A stretch of DNA of 64,000 bases from assembly GCF_900105985.1 (NCBI RefSeq), contig NZ_FNUB01000005.1, positions 2,046,001-2,110,000 of the forward strand, in the 5' to 3' direction. This stretch comes from Tenacibaculum sp. MAR_2010_89 (GTDB lineage Bacteria; Bacteroidota; Bacteroidia; Flavobacteriales; Flavobacteriaceae). How positions within the stretch are numbered: the first letter of the stretch is position 1; each line of letters starts with the position of its first letter. The translations under genes were made by a program, and so were the position numbers. The notes beneath the pieces were generated by a model. It was not told the origin of the DNA. It searched no databases and saw only the letters and a list, made by a program, of their open reading frames with translations. Positions 9,240 through 62,788 of this stretch are shown piece by piece.

Positions 9240-12200
9240 ATGAATTCAATTGCACCTTCTGAAATAATAATTAAAGGAGCTAAAACAAATAATCTGAAAA
9301 ATATTTCATTGAGGATTCCACATAACAAATTTATTGTGGTTAGTGGAGTATCTGGGTCAGGTAAATCAAGTCTAATTTCTGAAATAATAGCTAAAGAAGG
9401 TCAACGTAGGTACTTTGAAACATTACCATCTTTTGCAAGGCAGTTTTTAGGAAAGTTGAAAAGACCTGATGTAGATGAAATAGAAGGACTTTCCCCTGTT
9501 ATTTTTATTGGACAGCAAACTGCAGGAATGCATGCACGTTCTACAGTAGGTACTATATCAGATATTTATGATTTGTTACGGTTGTTATTTGCAAGAACTG
9601 GTATTGGAACTGAAAATGTTGTATTGTCTCGTGCTCTTTTTTCGTTTAATTCTGAAGTTGGAAAGTGTAAACGTTGCAACGGAATAGGAAAAGAGGAACA
9701 AATTGATTTAAATAGCTTAATTACTTTTCCAAAAAGAACAATTAGAGAAGGTGCATTAGCTCCAACATTACCAAATGGGTATATTATGTACTCTCAAGTA
9801 ACGATTGATGTACTTAATCATGTATGCAATTCTGAAGGGTTTAATGTAGATATTCCATGGAATGAATTAACAAAAAAACAGCAAGATGTTATTTTATATG
9901 GTAGTACTAAAATAAAAGTACCTTTTGGAAAGCATAGCCTCGAGTCTCGTTTAAAATGGACAGGTATCAAGGCTAAACCTCGTGAAGAAGGTTATTACAA
10001 AGGAATGATTCCGATTATGTCGGATATTTTAAAAAGAGATAGAAATGCTAATATTCTTAAATATGTACATGCTGTAATTTGTGAGGATTGTAATGGTAAT
10101 CGATTAAATAAAACGGCTTTAAATGTATGTGTTCATGGAAAGTCAATTGCAGAAATTGTTACTTTAGAATTGACTAAGCTTAAATCATGGATAAAGACTA
10201 ATTCTTGGGGTGATATAGCTACTGAAATTATAAAAAAAATTGAATCTCAAGTTAGTTTATTGGAAGATTTAGGATTGGGACATTTAACTATTGATCGTTC
10301 ATCATTTTCACTTCGTTCAAGTGAAATTCAACGTATTCGAGTAGCAAATCAAATTTTAACACCTTTGAGTAATGTTCTTTATATTTTTGATGAGCCTTCA
10401 ATTGGATTACACAAAGAAGAAAATGAAAAATTGATTTACCATTTCAAACAATTGGTAAAAAAAGGAAATACAGTTATTGTAGTAGAGCATAATTTAAATA
10501 CAATTACTAATGCTGATCATATTATAGAAGTTGGACCCAAAGCCGGAATTAATGGTGGTGAACTTGTTTTTAATGGTTCATTTTTAGAATTTATAAAGCA
10601 GAAAACATTAAAAGATGTTAGCCCAACATTCAGAGCTATAAATAAGAATTATTTACAGTTAGATTCAAAGAAAAAAACTAGTACAGATTTTATACATCTA
10701 ATAGGGTGTTATGAAAGAAATTTAAAGGACATAGATGTTAAATTTCAATTGGGAAAATTGAATGTTGTTAGTGGTAAGTCGGGTTCAGGAAAAGCTAGTT
10801 TAGTAAAAGAAACTTTAATCAAAGTTATTGAAGGAAAGCTAGGGAATAAAAGTCAAAAATTGCCAAAATTAGAAAGCTATAAAAATATTGATAGTATTGA
10901 TAAACTAGTTTATATTGATCATACTCCAATAGGAAAAACACCACGAAGTAATCCTGCTACTTATTTAGGTCTCTCTGATCATATTCGTGATATCTATGCA
11001 AAGCAGCCTGAATCAAAATTATTAGGATTTACCAAATCTCGTTTTTCATTTAATAACAAAGGGGGGAGGTGTGAAGTTTGTCAAGGTGCAGGAAAAACTC
11101 AAATAGGTATGCATTTTTTAGGTACTATTGATTTAATATGTGGTACCTGTAATGGTGATCGATTTAATAAAGAAACACTTCAAGTAACATATAATGGATT
11201 ATCAATTGCCGATATTTATAGGTTATCGGTTAACGATGCTTTAAAATTTTTTGAAGGCCATAAAAAGATAACTCAAGGACTTGAAACACTAAAAGAAATT
11301 GGGCTTGGATATTTAACTTTAGGACATTCATCAACAACTCTTTCTGGAGGAGAGGCTCAGCGTATTAAAATTGCAAATCAGTTACAGAAAAAAGATACAG
11401 GTAATACATTATATGTTATAATTGAGCCAAGTATTGGTTTACATCAAGATGATATTGAATCACTTCTTAATTTATTTAAAGCTATTCAGAACAAGGGGAA
11501 TACTATAGTTTGTGTTGAACAAAATCAAACAATTATAAGTGTTAGTGATTGGCATATTGAATTAGGACCTATTGGAGGTGTTAATGGTGGGAACATTCTT
11601 CATCAAGGTATTCCAAATCGTAATGAGGAATCACGATATAATACAATCAATAATCAAATAGAAGAAACGGTTATTTCTAATGATATAGTGTTGAAAGGTG
11701 TAACAACTAACGGACTTAAAAATATAGATGTTCGTATTCCTAAAAATCAGTTAACTGTTGTAACTGGAGTTTCTGGAAGTGGAAAGTCATCTTTGGTATA
11801 TGATACATTATTTGCTGAATCAAATGCTCGATTTACGGAATCATTGTCTACATATAATAGAAGTTTTTTAAAACAAAACAGTAATGCTGAGTTGGAATCT
11901 TTTTCAGGTTTAGGTCCAGCAATTGGAGTAAATAGAAGAGGGGGGACTACTACAAAGAGATCTACTGTTGGAACATTGTCAGGAATTCATGACGCATTTA
12001 GATTATTGTACTCTAGAATAGCCCAGTATGAAGAAAAAATATATACAGCTCAACATTTTTCTTTTAATCATCATTTAGGAGCGTGTCCAAGTTGTGAAGG
12101 AATTGGTGTGAAGCTGAAATGTAATCCTGATGAAATAATTATTTTTCCTGAAAAGTCAATATTTGAAGGAGCAATTTCTACCAATAAAGCAATAGCTTAT

Positions 12201-19777: not shown

Positions 19778-20517
19778 AAGTATTAATTATTGAAGACGAG
19801 TCTATTAATATCGAAATTATTACTGATCATATTCTTCGATACAATGACAAAATTGAAATAGTAACTTCGTTACAAAGTAAAGAAGAAGTAGAAAATTGGT
19901 ATGAAACTAATGGACAAGTTGATTTAGTGTTTTCTGATATTGAGTTGTTAGATGGAAATGTATTTTCTTTATTGAAAACTAGTATTATTAAATGTCCAAT
20001 TATTTTTACAACTGCCTATAATACTTTTTACCAAGATGCTTTTGATGTAAACGGAATAGCTTATTTATTAAAACCTATAAGCTACAATAAGTTTTGTAAA
20101 GCAATGGAAAAGTTTAATAATTTACAAAGTAAAGAAGTTGATTGGACGAAAATATCTGAAGCTATTCATGGATTGAACAATAATTACAAAGAACGTATTA
20201 TTGTAAAAACTAAAACAGAATTAAAAATTTTAAGCACAAAAAATACTGGAGCAATTTTATCTAATTCAGGTAAATGTATTGCAATTGATGAAAACGGAAA
20301 AGAAAATGAATTTCGCTATAAATTATCTGATTTAATAAAAGAGTTAAATCCAAAAGAGTTTTTCCAAATTAATCGGGGAGAAATTGTAAATATCAATTTC
20401 ATTGAGAAAATAGAACCTTACTTTGGAGATAGGCTGGCCGTTTCGATTAAAAAATACAAACAACATTTAATTACAAGTGCATCTTCAACAAGTGAGTTTA
20501 GAAAATGGATTGAGTAA
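19774..20517 (+). CDS. LytTR-family response regulator
   Basis: 247 residues. The receiver domain (1-120) has acidic IIEDE, phospho-acceptor D55 in VFSDIELLDGN, T in FTTAYN and K in YLLKP. The C-terminal LytTR DNA-binding domain (about 145-246) shows ERIIVKTKTELKIL and FFQINRGEIVNINFIEKI. It pairs with the overlapping kinase. A likely target is the 21-bp-phased repeat upstream of the receptor at 16286 (inference). Confidence 0.93.
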   Translation: MKVLIIEDESINIEIITDHILRYNDKIEIVTSLQSKEEVENWYETNGQVDLVFSDIELLDGNVFSLLKTSIIKCPIIFTTAYNTFYQDAFDVNGIAYLLKPISYNKFCKAMEKFNNLQSKEVDWTKISEAIHGLNNNYKERIIVKTKTELKILSTKNTGAILSNSGKCIAIDENGKENEFRYKLSDLIKELNPKEFFQINRGEIVNINFIEKIEPYFGDRLAVSIKKYKQHLITSASSTSEFRKWIE

Positions 20518-52518: not shown

Positions 52519-52803
52519 ACTTAGCTTAGCAATGGTTATCCTTAATGTAAGTTTTGTTATTTATTTTAAAGTAAATAAATATTCCCAAATTTAAAGGGAA
52601 ACAGAAAGTGAAGTATATTTTAATCTCTTACTAAACATGGTAAAACCATTGAAAAAAATAACAAATGGTAAATATATACTACAATGAGTTTGAGTAATCG
52701 CTAAACCTGATAACTATTCATTTCAGAGCTAGCTAAAGAAAAAAGTAAATTTATTACTTATAACTTCTCACAACCTTCAAAATTATTAACGATAATTTTC
52801 CAC
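52519..52803. other. Start of the gene-poor island; no gene recognised
   Basis: Very AT-rich with no credible ORF. A partial copy of the AATGGTTT-type motif (palindrome ATGGTAAAACCAT near 52638-52650) is the only element I can name. Confidence 0.4.
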
Positions 52804-52940
52804 AAAAAAAGAAAAGAAGTAACCATAAAGAATACTTCTTTTCTAATAACTAACCAAACGAATTTCAAAAATGAAATTCAAAACTACACTATAAAAATAG
52901 TATAAGATTAGTGTTGTTAATTAGTGTTTTAGATGAAATG
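52804..52940 (-). repeat. Hairpin repeat family 1, copy A (candidate small RNA unit)
   Basis: On the minus strand it reads: upstream TTTCATCTAAAAC box, a TATTTTTA (-7-like), GTGTAGTTTTGAATTTCATTT, GTTTGGTTAGTTA, then a terminator hairpin built on GAAGTATT / AGTTACTTC arms and a long T-run (52804-52845). No start codon or ORF is conserved among copies. Shares this order with copies C, D, E and F. Confidence 0.5.
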
Positions 52941-53118
52941 ATAATAAGTTGCGGTAAGTGGTAAGGTTTTGTCTATGTGTTTATAAAACAGATAGTTATT
53001 TTTTGTGTAATTTACCTTAGTAAATGAGTAATAGATGAGAAATAGATGAGAAATTGTATTGTATGAGTAAACAGTGTTATAAGAAATATATGAAGAAATG
53101 AATAAAAACAAGTAGAAC

Positions 53119-53283
53119 GAAAAAGAAAAGAAGTAGTCCCCCCGGATAACTTCTTTTTCTTGTCCGTCCTATGTTAAAAATATATAGCTAAAATTATTCT
53201 TTTAACCGAATCAAAATAACGGACAATATATTAAAATATGAATACTTAAAATCCCTGAATTCTAACTAATGGAAAACCATTAG
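53119..53283 (-). repeat. Family 2 unit 1: CTAATGGTTT box to terminator hairpin with G-rich loop
   Basis: The minus strand begins with the 37-bp box (53247-53283, containing the palindrome CTAATGG-AAAA-CCATTAG). About 90 bp follow without an ORF, ending in a terminator hairpin GAAGT...ACTTC (53119-53160) whose minus-strand loop contains six G residues. The box is 32/37 identical to that at 57764-57800. Confidence 0.45.
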
Positions 53284-53308
53284 TAAATTACGCAAAAAGT
53301 TAATAGAT

Positions 53309-53470
53309 AAAAGAAAAGAAGTAGTCCCCCACGGAATACTTCTTTTACTTAACCAAACTATTACTAAAAATGAAAAATTAAATTTTTAAACTATACAGTA
53401 AATATACTTTATGATAAAAATAAATTAATTGAATATTTGATGAAGTAAGTATAAGTATCGATAAAAGGAA
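53309..53470 (-). repeat. Hairpin repeat family 1, copy C (candidate small RNA unit)
   Basis: The minus strand contains TATATTTAC(-7-like)TGTATAGTTTAAAAATTT, CATTTTTAGTAATAGTTTGGTT, then terminator hairpin GAAGTATTCCGTGGGGGACTAC with matching ACTTC arm and T-rich tail. Closest to copy F in the body. The loop has five G residues on the minus strand. Confidence 0.5.
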
Positions 53471-54004: not shown

Positions 54005-54139
54005 TTATTCACATTGACGTAAATTACATCCTAAAGCTCCTTTTCTAGCACAAGGAGGGCAGTATATAACTCCACCGTTAATTGTTTTTTGTTCTGCCTT
54101 ATTTAAAGCTGTTCCTAAAGTTGAAATGTTTTTTAGCAT
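54005..54139 (-). CDS. Double-glycine leader peptide 1 (bacteriocin/RiPP-like precursor, 44 aa)
   Basis: Begins MLKNISTLGTALNK; the leader matches the double-glycine consensus L(-12), E(-8), I(-4), G(-2)G(-1) with INGG at residues 20-23. The predicted core of 21 residues has four cysteines (C27, C30, C38 and C43: YCPPC ... GC ... QCE). Such leaders are removed by C39-peptidase ABC transporters, giving a secreted bacteriocin or signal peptide; none is encoded nearby. The gene has its own terminator (53970) and a candidate operator 76 bp upstream (54215). Product activity is unknown; modification enzymes are absent, and the even Cys number suggests disulfides. Confidence 0.8.
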   Translation of the reverse strand: MLKNISTLGTALNKAEQKTINGGVIYCPPCARKGALGCNLRQCE

Positions 54140-54214
54140 TATAAAATAATTTAAATTAATTTTTTAAAGTTAATTTCTTTAAAATCAAATGTGAATATTT
54201 AAACTATAAACATA

Positions 54215-54231
54215 GTAAGGATAAACCTTAC
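54215..54231 (-). promoter_or_regulatory. Candidate operator of peptide gene 1: GTAAGG-N5-CCTTAC
   Basis: Inverted half-sites GTAAGG (54215-54220) and CCTTAC (54226-54231) with a 5-bp spacer, 76 bp upstream of the start codon. The same element, at nearly the same distance, precedes peptide genes 2 and 4. Confidence 0.6.
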
Positions 54232-54299
54232 TTTTCGGGCTAAATACTATCAAGAGAGCAATTAATCATTATGGGGAATTTATTTAAAAAAAGTATTAA

Positions 54300-54418
54300 T
54301 AAAAAATACCCACCATTATAGTGGGCATTATAAGGGGATGTTAAAATAAAAATAGATATTATTTATCATCCCATTACAAAAATGTAATACCTAAATATAC
54401 AAAATTAAATTTAAATAA
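54300..54418 (-). ncRNA. Candidate small RNA unit with TAATTTTG promoter box and terminator
   Basis: The minus strand starts in a 24-bp box (54395-54418) containing TAATTTTG, an exact TAnnTTTG. It then has a GGGATG...CATCCC stem and ends in the terminator TGCCCACTATAATGGTGGGT plus T-run (54303-54330). About 95 nt of predicted transcript without an ORF. The promoter box is repeated identically at 54514-54537. Confidence 0.4.
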
Positions 54419-54431
54419 GAGAAAAAGTAGT

Positions 54432-54537
54432 ATAAAAAAATGCTGGCCTATTCAAAATGTTAGACCAGCATAAGTTAAAACCGTCCCCACGGATCTAAAA
54501 AATCTTTTTTATAATATACAAAATTAAATTTAAATAA
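54432..54537 (-). ncRNA. Candidate small RNA unit with CCGTGGGGACGG hairpin and terminator
   Basis: Same 24-bp promoter-like box (54514-54537), followed on the minus strand by a GGGG-tetraloop hairpin CCGT-GGGG-ACGG (54481-54492) and a terminator with ATGCTGGTC / GGCCAGCAT arms (54438-54470) and T-run. The hairpin plus terminator recur at 57410-57485. Confidence 0.45.
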
Positions 54538-54579
54538 TTGAGTTAGATAATCAATTTATCTAGGAGTTTTAGAAACATC

Positions 54580-54750
54580 CTAAACCTTATTAGATATTAG
54601 CTTTTTTTCTTTTATATAACCCCAAATTAAACTAGCACCACAAATAAAACCAATAATACTAGTACTTGTTTCGTTGCCTGAAATAACATGATAACCGCAA
54701 AAGATTAAACCTACAATACCGATAAATAGTAAAAAATAATTAGCTTTCAT
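54580..54750 (-). CDS. Small two-helix membrane protein, 56 aa (candidate immunity or accessory protein)
   Basis: ATG at 54750, stop at 54580. MKANYFLLFIGIVGLIFCGY forms helix 1 (about 4-22); helix 2 is about 32-46 (SIIGFICGASLIWGY), followed by a basic tail YIKEKKLISNKV. Lies upstream of peptide gene 1 on the same strand. Small hydrophobic proteins next to bacteriocin genes are often immunity proteins, but no family match is claimed. It could also be an unrelated small membrane protein. Confidence 0.5.
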   Translation of the reverse strand: MKANYFLLFIGIVGLIFCGYHVISGNETSTSIIGFICGASLIWGYIKEKKLISNKV

Positions 54751-55271
54751 ATAACTTATGTTTTAATAATAAGTAGCTAAAAATAATTTTTTGTTACAAA
54801 AAAAATAATATGAGTAAAATTTATAGTGAATATTTTGGTGTAAAATAATATTTAAATAAAAAAATAAGCTTCCGAAGAAGCTTATTTGTGTTAATCTCAT
54901 AAAACTTCTTTACCCCTAAATTTATTTTATGAAGTTGTATAACAGTTTAAAATAAGTTAACCCTAAAAAAAATCTAAAAAAATAAGTAATCACTTTCAGA
55001 ATGCTTTGTTTTAGATCTAATCAATTTATTTCAAAAATAACTTAAGATTGAAGTAAGTATACAGTTTAGTTTTTATTTAGTAGTAAAGTATATAAATTTA
55101 AAAAAGCTCCCGAGGGAGCTTTGCTTTATTAACTACATAAAATTAGATTTATATTCTTAAAACCTTTTATGAATAAGTAGAACAATTAAAGTTTAATATA
55201 CCCTAATAATAACTGTACGAGTATTTGAAATGTACAGTTATAAAAAAGTGAACCGAAAGTTTACTTACATT
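54751..55271. other. Gene-less stretch with two minus-strand terminators
   Basis: Contains hairpin AAATAAGCTTC-CGAA-GAAGCTTATTT (54862-54887) and AAAGCTCCC-GA-GGGAGCTTT (55103-55122), both followed by T on the minus strand. Just upstream of the first on the minus strand is a CATAAAA/TTTTATG stem (about 54898-54936) with a GGGG loop. A 9-bp palindrome TAACTGTAC...GTACAGTTA lies at 55210-55240. No ORF is convincing. Confidence 0.45.
55246..55266 (-). terminator. Probable terminator of double-glycine peptide gene 2
   Basis: Stem AAGTGAAC / GTTTACTT (one G-T pair), loop CGAAA, with minus-strand T-run. It lies 6 bp after the stop codon of the peptide gene at 55272. Confidence 0.65.
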
Positions 55272-55430
55272 TTATAAACAAACAGAGTCCATAGGTAAAG
55301 CACATAATATTCCCCATTCTCCACCACATCTTAAACATTCCTCTTTTGTAGTTGGCCAAAAACCACCGTTAATTGTTTTTTGATCTGATTTTTTTAAGAT
55401 AGAACCTAATTTTGATACATTTTTAAACAT
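55272..55430 (-). CDS. Double-glycine leader peptide 2 (52 aa)
   Basis: Leader MFKNVSKLGSILKK..., INGG at residues 20-23, D16 in place of the usual E(-8). Core of 29 residues starts FWPTTKEECLRCGGEW and has four cysteines (C32, C35, C43 and C51). The core shares no sequence with peptide 1 although the leaders align without gaps. A GTAAGG-type operator lies 77 bp upstream (55507). Likely exported and cleaved after GG; function unknown. Confidence 0.8.
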   Translation of the reverse strand: MFKNVSKLGSILKKSDQKTINGGFWPTTKEECLRCGGEWGILCALPMDSVCL

Positions 55431-55494
55431 AATTAAATAATTTAAAGTTAATTTCTTAAAAATAGTTTCTTAAAAATTAAAAGAATAAAAATGA

Positions 55495-55523
55495 ACCTTA
55501 CAATAAGTAATGCTAAACCTTAC
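55495..55523 (-). promoter_or_regulatory. Candidate operator of peptide gene 2: three alternating half-sites
   Basis: On the minus strand GTAAGG-N5-CATTAC-N5-GTAAGG. The half-sites alternate in orientation with 11-bp spacing (one helical turn). The central half-site has one mismatch. The pair at 55507-55523 lies 77 bp upstream of the start. Confidence 0.55.
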
Positions 55524-55615
55524 TTTTTTCTCTACAAAAAAAAATATTTATTAATAAAGTAAATAGTAACTTTAGATAAAATTTTAAGAAACTTAAATTA
55601 AGTTATAAAGCGTAT

Positions 55616-56158
55616 ATGACACAAGAATTATATCAAAATGCAATCAAATTTGCTGGAGAAAAACACTGTAATCAAAAAGTGCCAGGAACTAATTCTAATT
55701 ATCTTTTACATCTTTCAAATGTAGCGATGGAAATATTAGTTGCTTATAATTTTAAAAGTAATTTTGATATTAATTATGCAATTCAAGTAGCTTTGCTTCA
55801 TGATACGATTGAGGATACAGATACTAAATTTGAAGAATTAAAGGATAAATTTGGAGAGTCAATAGCAAATGCTGTTCAAGCGTTGAGTAAAAATGAAGAT
55901 ATAGCTTTAAAAGAAGATAGAATGCTTGATAGTTTAATGCGTATAAATAAGCAGGAAAAAGAAGTTGGAATGGTTAAGATTGCTGATAGAATAACAAATT
56001 TACAAAAACCACCAATACACTGGAGTAAAGAAAAAATAATTAAATATTGTGAAGAAGCCAAATTGATATCAATTACACTTAATAATAAAAATGATTATTT
56101 AAATAAAAGGTTAGAAAGTAAGATAAAGGAATATGAAAGTTTATTTAATAGTTTTTAA
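55616..56158 (+). CDS. HD-domain hydrolase, MESH1-like small alarmone hydrolase
   Basis: 180 residues. HD signature: H32 in YLLHL, H62-D63 in ALLHDTIEDT, and D124 in KIADRITNL. The opening AGEKHCNQKVPGT is the usual RelA/SpoT-hydrolase start (AxxxHxGQxxxGxPYxxH). No synthetase or TGS domain. The family includes MESH1/SAH enzymes that cleave ppGpp or NADPH, so a role in stress nucleotide turnover is inferred. AT-rich context, isolated on the plus strand inside the island. Confidence 0.82.
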   Translation: MTQELYQNAIKFAGEKHCNQKVPGTNSNYLLHLSNVAMEILVAYNFKSNFDINYAIQVALLHDTIEDTDTKFEELKDKFGESIANAVQALSKNEDIALKEDRMLDSLMRINKQEKEVGMVKIADRITNLQKPPIHWSKEKIIKYCEEAKLISITLNNKNDYLNKRLESKIKEYESLFNSF

Positions 56159-56235
56159 TATTTAAAAAATATATACTTTCTTGTAAGTATGTAAACCAAT
56201 GTTGTATTAGTAAATAATTAAAAATAACACCTATA

Positions 56236-56859
56236 ATGAAAACTTCTTTTTTAGCTAAATGTTTTCCTGTACTTGAAAAAGAACTTTTGAATGAAGTTGA
56301 AGAACATTCAATTTTAAAAAGTTTTAAAGCAGGTGATTTTGTTGTTAAGCAAGGAAGGTTAATACGTTTTTTGCCTATAGTTTTAAGTGGTAATATTAAA
56401 GTGTTTAGTAATGAAGATTCTATACAGTTTCTTTTATATTATATTTCATCAGGAGAAACTTGTATTTATAGTTTTGCTCATATATCAAGTAAAGAACTAG
56501 CAGGGTTTTCAGCTATTGCAGAACTAGATAGTGAATTATTATTACTTCCAATTGATAAGGTTAATAAGTGGTTAAAAAAATATCCATCCTTTGGTAATCT
56601 AGTACTGTCTGATTATAAGAGACATTATAAAGATTTATTAAATACAACAAAACAAGTACTATGTTATAATTTAGAGGAAAGGTTATTAAATTATTTAAAA
56701 AATAAAGTACAAATTAAAGCATCGAATGTTTTAAGTGTTTCCCATCAAGAAGTTGCTGATGATTTAGGTACTTCAAGAGAGGTAATTACAAGGTTATTGA
56801 AAAAATTAAGTATTGCTAATAAAGTACTTCAAGAGGGAAGAAAAATAAAAGTTTTGTAA
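56236..56859 (+). CDS. Crp/Fnr family transcriptional regulator
   Basis: 207 residues. Cyclic-nucleotide-binding-like beta roll (about 20-120) and C-terminal HTH_Crp with SVSHQEVADDLGTSREVITRLLKKL, a true Crp/Fnr recognition helix of the R-E-V-x-R type. Cysteines occur near 74 and 136, but there is no N-terminal Fnr iron-sulfur cluster motif. It directly precedes the haem protein gene; a GTGA-N6-TCAC site lies between them. Confidence 0.9.
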   Translation: MKTSFLAKCFPVLEKELLNEVEEHSILKSFKAGDFVVKQGRLIRFLPIVLSGNIKVFSNEDSIQFLLYYISSGETCIYSFAHISSKELAGFSAIAELDSELLLLPIDKVNKWLKKYPSFGNLVLSDYKRHYKDLLNTTKQVLCYNLEERLLNYLKNKVQIKASNVLSVSHQEVADDLGTSREVITRLLKKLSIANKVLQEGRKIKVL

Positions 56860-56875
56860 AGTGACAGAAGTCACT
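56860..56875 (+). promoter_or_regulatory. CRP/FNR-like operator GTGA-N6-TCAC upstream of the HTHP gene
   Basis: AGTGACAGAAGTCACT: core GTGA-CAGAAG-TCAC (56861-56874), the symmetrical half-sites of the CRP consensus, 53 bp before the HTHP start. A TAnnTTTG -7 element (TAGCTTTG, 56897-56904) follows. The same bases could form a weak 6-bp hairpin before GTTTTT, so partial terminator use is possible. Confidence 0.55.
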
Positions 56876-56926
56876 GTTTTTGGATATTATGAGTTATAGC
56901 TTTGTTTTATATTTAAAAATAAAATA

Positions 56927-57166
56927 ATGTTAGATAAAACACAATTAATACCAGAAAACACGTTAATCACCAATTCACCTGAAGAAGGAAGAGCTTTAGC
57001 TGTAAAAATAGCAAGGTTAACTATTAAAATAACTCAACCTAATGCTGAGGTAAGAGATCAATTACGTCCAGTATATGCAAATGATGCCGCAATGTTAATA
57101 GCTATCGGTCAAACTGTAGCGTTAGAATTTTCTACTATATCTAAAGCAAATAATTATTGGAGATAA
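56927..57166 (+). CDS. Hexameric tyrosine-coordinated haem protein (HTHP)
   Basis: 79 residues. The pattern SPEEGRALAVKIARLTIKITQP, then EVRDQLRPVYANDAAMLIAIGQTVA and ANNYWR at the end, matches the HTHP family, small helical proteins that form a hexamer with one haem per subunit bound by Tyr (probably Y50 here). Family members show peroxidase and catalase-like activity in vitro; the physiological role is unclear. No signal peptide. A Crp/Fnr regulator gene and a CRP-like site lie just upstream, suggesting redox or haem-linked control. Confidence 0.85.
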   Translation: MLDKTQLIPENTLITNSPEEGRALAVKIARLTIKITQPNAEVRDQLRPVYANDAAMLIAIGQTVALEFSTISKANNYWR

Positions 57167-57243
57167 TAAAAAATATTAGATTGATATTATATAATAAAAA
57201 GCAGCACTTATTGAGTGCTGTTTTTTGTAAAAATAAGTTTAAT

Positions 57244-57408
57244 ATAAAAGAAGAAGTACCCCTTCAAAAATACTTCTTCTTTCCAACTAATTTAAACTAA
57301 CTAAAAATGAAATTACTTAAAACTTCATCATAAAGATACTTTAAAACAAAAGTTTAAATTAAAAAAAATAGTTGAATAGAACTTAACTGTAGATGAATGG
57401 TATTTAAT
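57244..57408 (-). repeat. Hairpin repeat family 1, copy D (candidate small RNA unit)
   Basis: Terminator at the left: perfect 12-bp stem AAAGAAGAAGTA / TACTTCTTCTTT (57247-57282), minus-strand loop TTTTTGAAGGGG. The rest aligns almost gap-free with copy E over about 160 bp, including the TATCTTTA (-7-like) and TTCTATTCAACTA boxes. No ORF conserved. Confidence 0.55.
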
Positions 57409-57409
57409 A

Positions 57410-57485
57410 AAAAAGCTGGCCTATTAAATAATATAATAGACCAACAAACCTTAAGCCCGTCCCCACGGGTCTTAAAAACTATCGT
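57410..57485 (-). ncRNA. Second copy of the CCCGTGGGGACGGG hairpin + terminator unit
   Basis: Perfect hairpin CCCGT-CCCC-ACGGG on the plus strand (57456-57469), i.e. GGGG tetraloop on the minus strand, followed on the minus strand by a GCTGGCC-containing terminator and T-run (57410-57450). Same order and near-identical words as 54432-54492. Confidence 0.45.
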
Positions 57486-57644
57486 TAAAGATAAAAACGT
57501 GTTTATCTTCTTTTTATTTGTAAGACTCTAAAAAAATAAAAAAGTCACATAAAGAACTCTATAGTAAGCTAAATAAATCAGAGTAAATTAAGAGGAGAGT
57601 TATTGTTGTTTTTATTAAAAGGTAGGATAACATGTTGCTTTAAA

Positions 57645-57800
57645 AAAAGAAAGGAGCTTATAAAGCTCCCTTCTAAACAATAATTAAAACCCTTCTAAAA
57701 ATTTAACGATTATTGTTTTTAAAGAGTGCAAATATTGTATAAATCAAGAAATTTTAAAATAGGTAAAAACCCTGAATTTTTACTAAGGGTAAACCATTAG
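57645..57800 (-). repeat. Family 2 unit 3: CTAATGGTTT box to terminator
   Basis: Right-end box 57764-57800, 32/37 identical to 53247-53283. On the minus strand, AATATTTGCACTC (-7-like) and an AATAAT...ATTATT stem with AGAAGGG loop follow, then terminator GGAGCTTTATAAGCTCC and TTTCTTTTTTT (57652-57678). Same length (about 156 bp) as the other family 2 units (165 and 167 bp). Confidence 0.45.
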
Positions 57801-57975
57801 AAAACTCAGTGTTTTAGAGAGGTTTAGAAGGTTTTTTGATATTGTAAATAACTTAAAAATGTAAATATTAATAAAAATATTATTTTTTTATTATAAAGCT
57901 AATGAGTAAGATAAAAAACATAGAAATCGCTAATTATTTAATAGAAATAATTGTAATTTAGTAGTGTCTTGTAAA

Positions 57976-58105
57976 ACAAAAAAACTCCTCTGAATATTTC
58001 TTTTCTGGTAACTATTTTTTTCTAAAAATTAAAAACTAACTTTTAAATTATATAACAATTATAACTTAATTCAGTAGAAAGCAATTTATGTATTAGATGA
58101 AGTAT
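57976..58105 (-). repeat. Degenerate family 1 copy G
   Basis: Weak resemblance: the minus strand has CTTCATCTAATACATAAATT (compare TTTCATCTAAAACACTAATT in copy A), GTTTTTAATTTTTAGAAAA and TAGTTA, and ends near CTCCTCTG with a T-run. The terminator stem is eroded. Confidence 0.3.
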
Positions 58106-58140
58106 GTCTATGTTTATTTAAAAAATATTTTAGTGTAAGT

Positions 58141-58169
58141 AAAAAAACAGGTTTTATCCTGCTTTTTTT
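58141..58169. terminator. Terminator of double-glycine peptide gene 3
   Basis: CAGG-TTTTAT-CCTG flanked by seven A on the left and seven T on the right, 12 bp after the peptide stop on the minus strand. Short GC stem but long A/T pairing. Confidence 0.65.
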
Positions 58170-58180
58170 AATATTATTAA

Positions 58181-58321
58181 TTACCTACAAGACCACGAAC
58201 GTGTAGATGGATTATATTTTGCTTTTAATGGATAAGGACAAAGTGGTGCTTTTCCTCCGTTAATTGATGTTTGTTCTGTTTTGTTTAAAGTAGTACCTAA
58301 TTTTGAAATGTTTTTTAACAT
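58181..58321 (-). CDS. Double-glycine leader peptide 3 (46 aa)
   Basis: Leader MLKNISKLGTTLNKTEQ with INGG at residues 20-23. Core of 23 residues begins KAPLCPYPLKAKYNPS and has two cysteines (C28 and C45), compatible with one disulfide closing a loop of 16 residues; the net charge of the core is strongly positive. Unlike the other three genes, no GTAAGG/CCTTAC element is seen upstream. It has its own terminator. Function unknown. Confidence 0.78.
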   Translation of the reverse strand: MLKNISKLGTTLNKTEQTSINGGKAPLCPYPLKAKYNPSTRSWSCR

Positions 58322-58477
58322 AGTATTAAATTTTATATTATTTAATAAGCAAGTTAAAATTGATTTTTGAAAAATAATCTGAAATATTTCCGAGTTCTAT
58401 GAAATAACTTCTAGAGGTAACAAAAAAGAAAAATAACTAGCTAAAACTGTTTCATAACTTCACTAAAGAAGATAAGC

Positions 58478-58627
58478 TTATATAAATTTATATTCTTCAG
58501 GATTATTAGACATTTTGTTGTAGCAATAACGATCAATAGTTATTTCGAATTTAAGTTTAGGAAATTTAACATCATATTTATTTCCGTACGATTTGATAAG
58601 CTTTACTAATGTTGGTTTTGATTTCAT
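58478..58627 (-). CDS. Small basic ORF, 49 aa, between peptide genes 3 and 4
   Basis: MKSKPTLVKLIKSYGNKYDV, then ...FEITIDRYCYNKMSNNPEE and a KFI end. No leader of the GG type, no membrane helix; one cysteine. Basic N-terminal half, acidic tail. Same strand as the peptides and located 156 bp upstream of peptide gene 3. Could be a separate precursor, a small regulator, or chance; I do not recognise a family. Confidence 0.4.
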   Translation of the reverse strand: MKSKPTLVKLIKSYGNKYDVKFPKLKFEITIDRYCYNKMSNNPEEYKFI

Positions 58628-58775
58628 AATTATAGATTTTATTCTTTTAAAATACTTTATAAAATCAATAAAATAATCAAAAATTAGATAATTACATGGA
58701 GAAGTTAAGGTGAGTTGTAAGTAGCTTTAGATATATAGATTGGTTATATATTCTTTTAAGAAAAGAAAGATAGTT

Positions 58776-58819
58776 AAAGTAAACTACAGGAGAACTTTTT
58801 AACCCCAGTAGTTTACTTT
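58776..58819 (-). terminator. Hairpin after double-glycine peptide gene 4
   Basis: 12-bp stem AAAGTAAACTAC / GTAGTTTACTTT with a 20-nt loop containing TGGGG on the minus strand, 8 bp after the stop codon at 58828. The T-tract is interrupted, so termination may be partial. Confidence 0.6.
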
Positions 58820-58827
58820 TATTTACA

Positions 58828-59004
58828 TTATAATAAAATACAACCACCCCAAGAATAACATCTACAAGGTTCTCTTAATACATATCCATTAGGTAATGTT
58901 CTACAACAAGTTGAATTTCCACATTGAGTCCAATTACCACCATTAATAGATTTTTGTTCACTTTTGTTTAAAGTTGTTCCAAGATTTGAAATTTTTTTTA
59001 ACAT
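58828..59004 (-). CDS. Double-glycine leader peptide 4 (58 aa, six-cysteine core)
   Basis: Leader MLKKISNLGTTLNKSEQ with INGG at residues 20-23. Core of 35 residues begins NWTQCGNSTCCRTLPNGY and has six cysteines (C28, C33, C34, C47, C49 and C55), including adjacent CC and CRC, a spacing reminiscent of compact three-disulfide toxins or defensin-like bacteriocins (analogy only). A 49-bp palindrome with four GTAAGG/CCTTAC half-sites lies upstream. Largest and most Cys-rich member of the set. Confidence 0.8.
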   Translation of the reverse strand: MLKKISNLGTTLNKSEQKSINGGNWTQCGNSTCCRTLPNGYVLREPCRCYSWGGCILL

Positions 59005-59058: not shown

Positions 59059-59107
59059 AGTAACCTTACTAAAAGTAAGGTTATTCCTTACTTTTAGTAA
59101 GGTTACT
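59059..59107 (-). promoter_or_regulatory. Perfect palindrome (22-bp arms) with four alternating GTAAGG/CCTTAC half-sites
   Basis: Arms 59059-59080 and 59086-59107 are perfect complements around TTATT. Within it the order CCTTAC-N5-GTAAGG-N5-CCTTAC-N5-GTAAGG repeats with an 11-bp period. The central pair (59075-59091) lies 71 bp upstream of the peptide 4 start. No T-run follows, so it is more like an operator than a terminator. Confidence 0.6.
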
Positions 59108-62415: not shown

Positions 62416-62583
62416 AATAAAAAAGAAAAGAAGTAACCCTTCAAAATTACTCCTTCTCTCAAACTAATTTAAACTTACTAAAAATGAAATTATTTAAAAC
62501 TTCTACATAAAAGTAATTTAAAGAAAGAGTTTTGTTGAATTAAATTAGTTGAATAGAATGTATCTATAGATAAACGGTATTTG
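62416..62583 (-). repeat. Hairpin repeat family 1, copy E (candidate small RNA unit)
   Basis: Aligns with copy D (57244-57408) over its full length. On the minus strand: CCGTTTATCTATAG, TTCTATTCAACTAATTT, TTACTTTTATG (-7-like), GTTTTAAATAATTTCATTTTT, then terminator with GGAGTAATTTTGAAGGGTTAC and TTCTTTTTT tail. Confidence 0.55.
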
Positions 62584-62616
62584 AGATTTTATAGTAAAAC
62601 AACTAAAATAAGTTTT

Positions 62617-62788
62617 ATAAAAAAAGAAAGAAGTATTCTTGCGAAGACTTCTTTCCTAACTAACCAAACATTTTCCAAAAAATGAAAAATCAAATTTTAA
62701 ACTACACTGTAAATATAATTTAAGAACTAAGTAAGTTGTCTGATTATTAGTTGAATAGGTGTTATGTTTCGATAAGTAGTATTAAAAC
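62617..62788 (-). repeat. Hairpin repeat family 1, copy F (candidate small RNA unit)
   Basis: On the minus strand: ACTTATCGAAACATAAC, CTATTCAACTAATAATC, TTATATTTACAGTGTAG (-7-like), GTTTGGTTAGTTAGG, then hairpin GAAGTCTTCGCAAGAATACT and seven T. Adjacent to copy E in direct orientation. Confidence 0.55.

Follow-up and report, generated by a model that had tools for sequence, protein, structure and literature searches.

Scattered double-glycine cysteine peptide genes of Tenacibaculum sp. MAR_2010_89 as candidate orphan substrates of a distant C39 exporter, with small-RNA-like genes on the same strand

Double-glycine (GG) cysteine peptides and Bacteroidetes bacteriocins are both already known, and they form the background for four small genes from Tenacibaculum sp. 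MAR_2010_89 that are described here. The genes lie in a 64,000-nucleotide stretch, hereafter the window (positions 2,046,001 to 2,110,000 of contig NZ_FNUB01000005.1, or C5:2046001-2110000 of this 4.17-Mb, five-contig genome; G numbers denote genomes and L numbers denote loci). The bacteroidetocins (class IIf) have a GG leader and pairs of cysteines, are associated with a double-glycine-peptidase ATP-binding cassette (ABC) transporter and a thiol oxidoreductase, and are reported to inhibit Bacteroidales (PMC6671954). The window genes are similar in that they too encode GG-leader cysteine peptides of a Bacteroidetes species, with a C39-type transporter and a thiol oxidoreductase at loci of the system. 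However, bacteroidetocins have leaders of 15-16 residues and compact clusters with their own transporter (PMC6671954), whereas the leaders of the window set are 23 residues long, its cores are of many kinds, its genes are dispersed and without a local exporter, and the oxidoreductase is a VKOR-thioredoxin fusion; the set lacks these class IIf features.

A second comparison is with the prochlorosins, in which one promiscuous system likewise handles many substrates (PMC10783134). Prochlorosins are Nif11-family lanthipeptides modified by ProcM, whereas disulfides are expected in the window set and no synthetase was noticed. Prochlorosin substrate genes are dispersed. The streptococcal Blp and Com systems combine GG peptides, a C39 exporter that can serve unlinked substrates, and two-component control. 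The likeness is one of system organisation, and one difference is that the response regulator proposed for the present case does not match LytTR. Among the titles and opening parts of abstracts returned by searches of the open-licence literature, none described a dispersed Tenacibaculum set, the type-1 promoter element or the small RNAs considered below.

All four genes are on the minus strand and their reading frames are intact on translation. Precursor 1 (54005..54139) has 44 amino acids, consisting of a 23-residue leader and a 21-residue core with four cysteines. Precursor 2 (55272..55430) has 52 amino acids and a 29-residue core with four cysteines, precursor 3 (58181..58321) has 46 amino acids and a 23-residue core with two, and precursor 4 (58828..59004) has 58 amino acids and a 35-residue core with six. 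These are the frames, core lengths and cysteine counts given in the initial annotation, and the common leader that it described was recovered by alignment: the four leaders align without gaps, 12 of 23 columns are invariant, and the sequence INGG occupies residues 20-23. The I-N-G-G codon pattern occurs five times in the window against 0.47 expected, and four of these occurrences are precursors 1-4 (the fifth is at 10548 on the plus strand). The four open reading frames (ORFs) are real genes. A Pfam search matched none of the four precursors, a PDB sequence search returned no match, and the structure predicted for precursor 4 has low confidence (pLDDT 64). The best match of precursors 1 and 4 is the NCBIfam model NF047798 (leader_Chryseo, 'bacteriocin-like protein'), which did not match precursors 2 and 3. 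The likeness is a short leader ending in GG; the scores of 13.7 and 13.5 bits are below the 23.5-bit cut-off, and the model covers the leader domain only.

A leader profile built from precursors 1-4 alone identified seven further genes of the same class in the complete genome (E 1.9e-13 to 1.2e-7) and two weaker ones (E 1.7e-4 and 0.0056). Its matches at E<=10 number 40, the weakest of which are doubtful. Reading the retrieved stretches by pattern gave at least 41 precursors. Thirteen are orphans of the MLKNIS class, with four in the window and nine in a second island (C5:3365-3382 kb), and 28 are of the MKKxIL class (MKK[QS]IL-like, hereafter MKK class), located at C5:815-827 kb and C4:436-442 kb around two exporters. 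At least one further precursor (MNKQ..., L040:60) is outside this count. The window precursors and most of the exporter-cluster precursors have in common the leader spacing L-x3-L-x7-I-x-GG. Cysteine counts are even in 40 of the 41 cores. The same was found among 306 distinct precursors gathered by pattern from retrieved loci of other genomes (all 64 members of the M[LIVFA] class and 231 of the 238 in the MK class, with four in neither class), and the leaders lack cysteine. Since these sequences, though distinct, are related to one another, we put no probability on the parity.

The window contains no C39 match, and the nearest on the same contig is more than 1.2 Mb away, so the earlier statement that no such transporter is nearby stands. 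Its companion statement, that no modifying enzyme is nearby, holds for the ten neighbouring proteins scanned (50-64 kb of the window), among which no peptide-modifying enzyme or synthetase was found. The complete genome encodes three C39 ABC transporters, and two of them sit amid MKK-class precursors with the shared leader spacing. Thus, the genome-wide leader and C39 searches support an even-cysteine, leader-defined precursor set without a local exporter, and the set has both the GG leader with hydrophobic spacing and the C39 ABC transporter in the genome that mark C39-processed double-glycine precursors. The two ABC proteins beside MKK-class precursors match at 100% identity. According to domain calls, both clusters encode a C39-ABC protein, an HlyD-type protein and a fusion of C39-like, VKOR and Thioredoxin_4 domains of about 529 residues.

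Even cysteine counts and an oxidising enzyme in the system, as looked for in disulfide peptides, are both present here; the bonds themselves are predicted from sequence, and cysteine parity together with the oxidase fusion would fit disulfide formation during export. Lanthipeptide-type modification of the cores by an enzyme encoded elsewhere is a very unlikely alternative reading, although the leaders do match pinensin and class I lanthipeptide leader models at sub-threshold scores. These scores are below the curated cut-offs (13.5 of 24 bits and, in the case of a single cluster precursor, 14 of 22 bits), and the exporter clusters carry the VKOR-thioredoxin fusion. Moreover, no synthetase-sized gene was noticed between the regulator and HlyD genes, although a genome-wide synthetase search was not made. 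Each lanthionine ring takes one cysteine, so no parity is expected for lanthipeptides, whereas the cysteine count is even in nearly all of these cores.

The third C39 transporter (L008 7785-12400, C5:71.8-76.4 kb) stands beside two peptides with other leaders (ending IQGG and IQGEG) and a gene that we read as thioredoxin-like, and this looks like a separate bacteriocin locus.

Leaders and exporters of the type described tend to occur in the same genomes. Among 58 genomes of the genus, including the present one, the leader profile (E<=0.01) matches in 13, the exporter protein (E<=1e-20) matches in 13, and both match in 11 (one-sided Fisher test 2.5e-8, without correction for kinship).

A 28-bp operator-like element, termed type 1 and with the consensus AAGGTTTAnCCTTACTTnTTnTAnGGTT, is present upstream of orphan genes. 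The initial annotation had mentioned neither this element nor the second island nor the small-RNA-like genes among the peptides. On the minus strand of the window, it is located at 54202..54229 (62 nucleotides before the ATG of precursor 1, three mismatches), at 55494..55521 (63 nucleotides before precursor 2, one mismatch) and at 59062..59089 (57 nucleotides before precursor 4, three mismatches, and readable on the plus strand too). When up to three mismatches are allowed, the 4.17-Mb genome contains nine matches at eight distinct sites, all of them 57-63 nucleotides before the ATGs of MLKNIS genes, and a reversed-pattern control has none. A second element, located 61-63 nucleotides before three more orphans, is otherwise absent from the genome at up to three mismatches. 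The pattern was derived from the very sites that it then finds in this genome, and therefore only the results from other genomes and the absence of matches elsewhere count as tests.

Across 59 genomes, the type-1 pattern has matches in five, including the present one. Sixteen loci were read from that search, four of them (L079, L082, L083 and L086) at a stronger site nearby. This left twelve distinct sites, of which seven precede MLKNIS-type cysteine peptides, three precede the exporter fusion gene and two precede neither (L087, which is a small-RNA site, and L078 in G037). A relaxed pattern applied to the 58 genus genomes gave 31 distinct sites outside the present genome. Twenty precede GG peptides (17 read in sequence, one of these with a different leader, and three assigned by coordinates), four precede the exporter gene and two precede a small-RNA-like gene. 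In addition, 15 of 34 named exporter-fusion loci, near relatives among them, have the element at up to five mismatches 67-79 nucleotides before the exporter gene. A response regulator gene is directly upstream in all 15 (the L146 match is partial) and in none of the other 19. Because the element precedes both GG peptides and the exporter operon in relatives, together with a response regulator, a distant exporter that would serve scattered substrates is a prediction well supported by comparative sequence evidence. The initial annotation had proposed such an exporter, and the C39 exporters found amid precursors of the same spacing also favour it.

The exporter-side response regulator scores 23.4 bits to Response_reg, which is below the Pfam cut-off, and has no LytTR match. 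Our own reading of its C-terminus suggests a NarL/LuxR-like protein. Control of the type-1 element by a LytTR regulator of the ComE/BlpR type was also considered, prompted by the 22-bp repeat period of the element. This candidate was set aside in favour of the exporter-side regulator because the genome has 37 LytTR domains and because the element adjoins a different regulator in relatives. One LytTR domain is in the window itself (20272-20511, plus strand), remote from the peptide genes. In G078, two element variants (C1:1961599 and 3997286; L186 and L196) have repeats that change together (GTACGG/CCGTAC/GTACGG in the first). One of them precedes an ORF that we read as transposase-like, and neither precedes a peptide.

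The presence of regulators near the exporters raises the prospect that the peptides are secreted signals that report to two-component systems, as double-glycine pheromones of streptococci do, rather than bacteriocins. A LytTR response regulator and a His_kinase are encoded beside exporter 2 (L007 4475-7049, C4:431.5-434 kb), and a response regulator is encoded beside exporter 1. LytTR relatives with 85-90% identity adjoin exporters of the exporter 2 type at L143 and L166. However, the 41 or more precursors outnumber the signals that would be expected from two-component systems next to the exporters, a comparison in which receptors elsewhere in the genome are uncounted. Pheromones are typically strain-specific, whereas the six-cysteine core is kept at the amino-acid level across species. 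We consider a signalling role unlikely, with perhaps one chance in a handful.

The initial annotation had called the cores hypervariable, which does not hold when each is compared with its own relatives. A protein search with the four precursors returned 63 proteins, and every core has homologues with the same cysteine count, several of them named Tenacibaculum (32 of the 63 were read). Core homologues are P0009, P0014 and P0018 for precursor 1, P0016, P0020 and P0021 for precursor 2, and P0013, P0015, P0017 (two cysteines) and P0023 (three cysteines) for precursor 3; an Aquimarina homologue of precursor 3 has one cysteine more. For the homologue P0056, a precomputed PF01721 label was not recovered when Pfam was searched at E<=0.001. 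A close orthologue of precursor 4 is present in nine of 166 genus genomes, including the present one, and all six cysteines are invariant. The ratio of nonsynonymous to synonymous substitution (dN/dS), which was computed for precursor 4 alone, is 0.10 for the leader and 0.17 for the core (36 pairs), and the type-1 element lies 57-59 nucleotides before the gene in seven of the nine genomes. Thus, the cores are conserved between orthologues, and precursor 4 is under purifying selection.

The genes might instead be decaying cassettes left by mobile elements, with processing lost. They are scattered, and none of the ten window neighbour proteins was found at E<=1e-5 within about 1.5 kb on either side of the eight other precursor 4 loci, so the surroundings of these orthologues differ. 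Furthermore, the second island has repeated small elements, and some copies elsewhere contain stop codons (C5:291304; G021 C2:261202). Decay is nevertheless highly improbable in our estimate, given the intact frames of the window genes, the core homologues in other records, and the purifying selection on the leader and core of precursor 4, whose promoter element and cysteines are conserved.

Taken together, we consider it probable that the window genes encode orphan substrates of a distant C39 system that are controlled by a regulator, cleaved after GG, oxidised to disulfides and most likely bacteriocin-like. The genes, the leader set, the distribution of the element, the gene content of the exporter loci, the co-occurrence and the selection on one core are observed, whereas the identity of the regulator, the cleavage, export and oxidation, and the activity in the following order of events are inferred. 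A response regulator (probably the product of the gene that immediately precedes the exporter operon) would act at the element before both the orphan genes and the exporter. The C39 ABC transporter would then remove the 23-residue leader after GG and export the core, and the adjacent C39like-VKOR-thioredoxin fusion would oxidise the even number of cysteines into disulfides. The released peptides would most likely act on competing bacteria in the manner of class II bacteriocins, with signalling as the next most likely role.

Several observations weigh against this interpretation. Neither the type-1 nor the second element was found before precursor 3, and the orphan gene at C5:3365614 also lacks both. 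The element before exporter 1 of this genome is degenerate (five mismatches, with the response regulator present there), and none is found before exporter 2 at up to five mismatches. Elsewhere, G002 has the regulator beside the exporter but by eye keeps only the inverted-repeat half of the element. Five of the 31 relaxed-pattern sites are not followed by a peptide, an exporter or a small RNA, there is no peptide downstream of the element sites in G078, G006 and G009, and the sole match outside the genus (G037) is also without a peptide downstream. The response regulator is nominated by adjacency alone, near relatives are among the 34 exporter loci, and a paralogue of the regulator adjoins not an exporter but a gene that we read as TPR-like and a small ORF that we read as lipoprotein-like. 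Leaders without an exporter match occur in G011 (67% complete) and G016, and in G069 and G075 the exporter match contains a stop codon and there is no leader. Finally, no immunity gene was identified, although no search was aimed at such genes.

Several features of the other precursor loci can be recorded here. The second island (L039, C5:3365-3385 kb) contains many small ORFs, among them near-duplicate 52-residue ORFs, and three GTCAAAGAACTTTTC motifs that are also present in three G067 loci. It has a cassette-like look, and the repeats hint at an integron-like origin. In the two MKK clusters (L006 and L007), several cores have by eye a C-C-CC-C-C spacing like that of knottins. A conserved 5' element, TCTCGCGAAGAATAGACA...CCTTGA.TGTCT...TCAAGG, is located about 30-60 nucleotides before many MKK-class ATGs (C5:815-826 kb and C4:436-442 kb). 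This element could fold into an H-type pseudoknot, in which some changes look compensatory by eye (CGGTGA/TCGCCG and CGGTGA/TCACCG), and Rfam has no match there.

What is new here is the presence of small-RNA-like genes on the peptide strand in both islands, as read from their sequence features. Each of these repeats has a TATnTTTA promoter box, a predicted RNA of about 85 nucleotides and a terminator hairpin. The family, termed R1, was found by comparing the flanks of precursor 4 orthologues with the window, and a covariance model was built from ten copies. In two scans, one of 22 sources (429 kb) and one of 77 sources (766 kb) out of 249 loci, matches below E 0.015 are confined to the window (52.8-62.7 kb), the second island and the vicinity of three of the eight precursor 4 orthologues. 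Each of these three loci has two copies, one of which is in the model. By eye, most of the 17 upstream regions share variants of a direct repeat with 21-bp spacing, which differs from the type-1 element and is missing at the window copy 53116.

The secondary structure model is not strongly supported by covariation. In the terminator helix 96.9% of cells are paired, but changes on both sides are seen at only three of the 16 pairs, as many as when partners are slid by one column. Likewise, the pair types show no excess over shuffled alignments (477 of 500 shuffles reach the observed value). Rfam at relaxed E-values gave only sub-gathering, chance-like matches at these elements.

Six window elements, all on the minus strand, can be described individually. 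The gene at 52802..52899 has a promoter box, a body and an intrinsic-type terminator, is an R1 model member (E 8.6e-8) with a folding z-score of -5.9, and is predicted to pair only weakly with MKK-class starts (31 of the 126 control starts do as well as the MKK median). At 53304..53406 is another model member, with a folding z-score of -2.0 and a seed that is nearly antisense to MKK-class starts, two mismatches from the strong seed described below; its predicted pairing is also weak, with 10 of the 126 control starts doing as well as the MKK median. The copies at 57239..57338 (E 2.1e-5), 62416..62515 (E 5.6e-4) and 62616..62717 (E 3.1e-9) are outside the model, as is a weak element at 53116..53218 (E 0.0092) in which the terminator part is conserved and the body is not. 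No pairing with MKK starts was found for 53116, 57239, 62416 or a further window copy at 57640. The copy at 62616 carries a 20-nucleotide seed complementary to the sequence around the ATGs of MKK-class genes.

Five of the twelve copies in this genome (62616 and four from the second island) are predicted to pair with the 28 MKK-class starts at mean energies of -19.1 to -20.7 kcal/mol. The corresponding values are about -12 on 126 control starts, which are uncurated ORFs of at least 120 amino acids, and about -11 to -12 on the 13 MLKNIS-class starts, and 1-5 of the 126 controls reach the MKK median. For the 62616 copy, the means are -20.7 on MKK starts and -12.2 on controls. The antisense 20-mer, with up to three mismatches, occurs 28 times in 197 kb of retrieved stretches of this genome, and 19 of these sites are exactly at the ATGs of exporter-cluster precursors, seven are in small-RNA elements and two are elsewhere. 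Six shuffles of the 20-mer had no occurrence in two stretches. Two of six orthologue-side copies from other genomes trend alike on the starts of this genome (L237:1796, 2 of 126 controls; L235:1286, 3 of 126). The second-island copy L039:17573 pairs about equally with both classes (-16.2 on MLKNIS starts and -15.6 on MKK starts) and therefore counts against class specificity.

The R1 genes are considered candidate trans-acting small RNAs, and the antisense seed in five of the twelve copies suggests a substrate switch. The peptide genes of the islands begin ATG TTA AAA (MLKNIS class), whereas the seed is directed at the start of the other class, ATG AAA AAA (MKKxIL). Perhaps, when the islands are switched on, the small RNAs block translation of the resident MKK-class substrates, which would leave the common exporter and oxidase available to the orphan peptides. 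The orphan islands would then carry their own silencers, handing the shared secretion machinery to MLKNIS peptides under RNA control. We offer this tentatively and would give it somewhat less than an even chance. An alternative origin of the seed is an inverted copy of a precursor start.

A described parallel is provided by the pneumococcal csRNAs, which are several similar small RNAs under a response regulator, complementary to the mRNA of the comC pheromone precursor (PMC4507080). The R1 genes resemble them in the multiplicity of similar predicted RNAs and the predicted complementarity to peptide-precursor mRNA. They differ in that they occur in another phylum, have about 28 bacteriocin-like candidate targets, and sit among the competing substrates.

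A separate small-RNA-like family (L218-L229) matches over 39 nucleotides without mismatch in 12 copies, seven of them in G067, from six of 58 genomes (G016, G021, G026, G027, G067 and G077), all of which are leader-positive. In four of these genomes it lies close to MLKNIS genes and is preceded by a type-1-like element, which is degenerate in G077. There is no copy in the present genome at up to three mismatches. This family was also considered as an MKK silencer and rejected, as its pairing with MKK starts is no better than with controls.

These results place four anonymous small ORFs in a repertoire of more than 40 disulfide-type peptides encoded across the genome of a single strain, and the promoter element finds further members without recourse to peptide sequence. 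Two questions become directly accessible to experiment. One is how a single exporter selects among dozens of substrates encoded at scattered sites, and the other is whether antisense RNAs enable islands to commandeer secretion machinery held in common. Peptides of this kind might also yield new antibacterial scaffolds of Bacteroidota origin.

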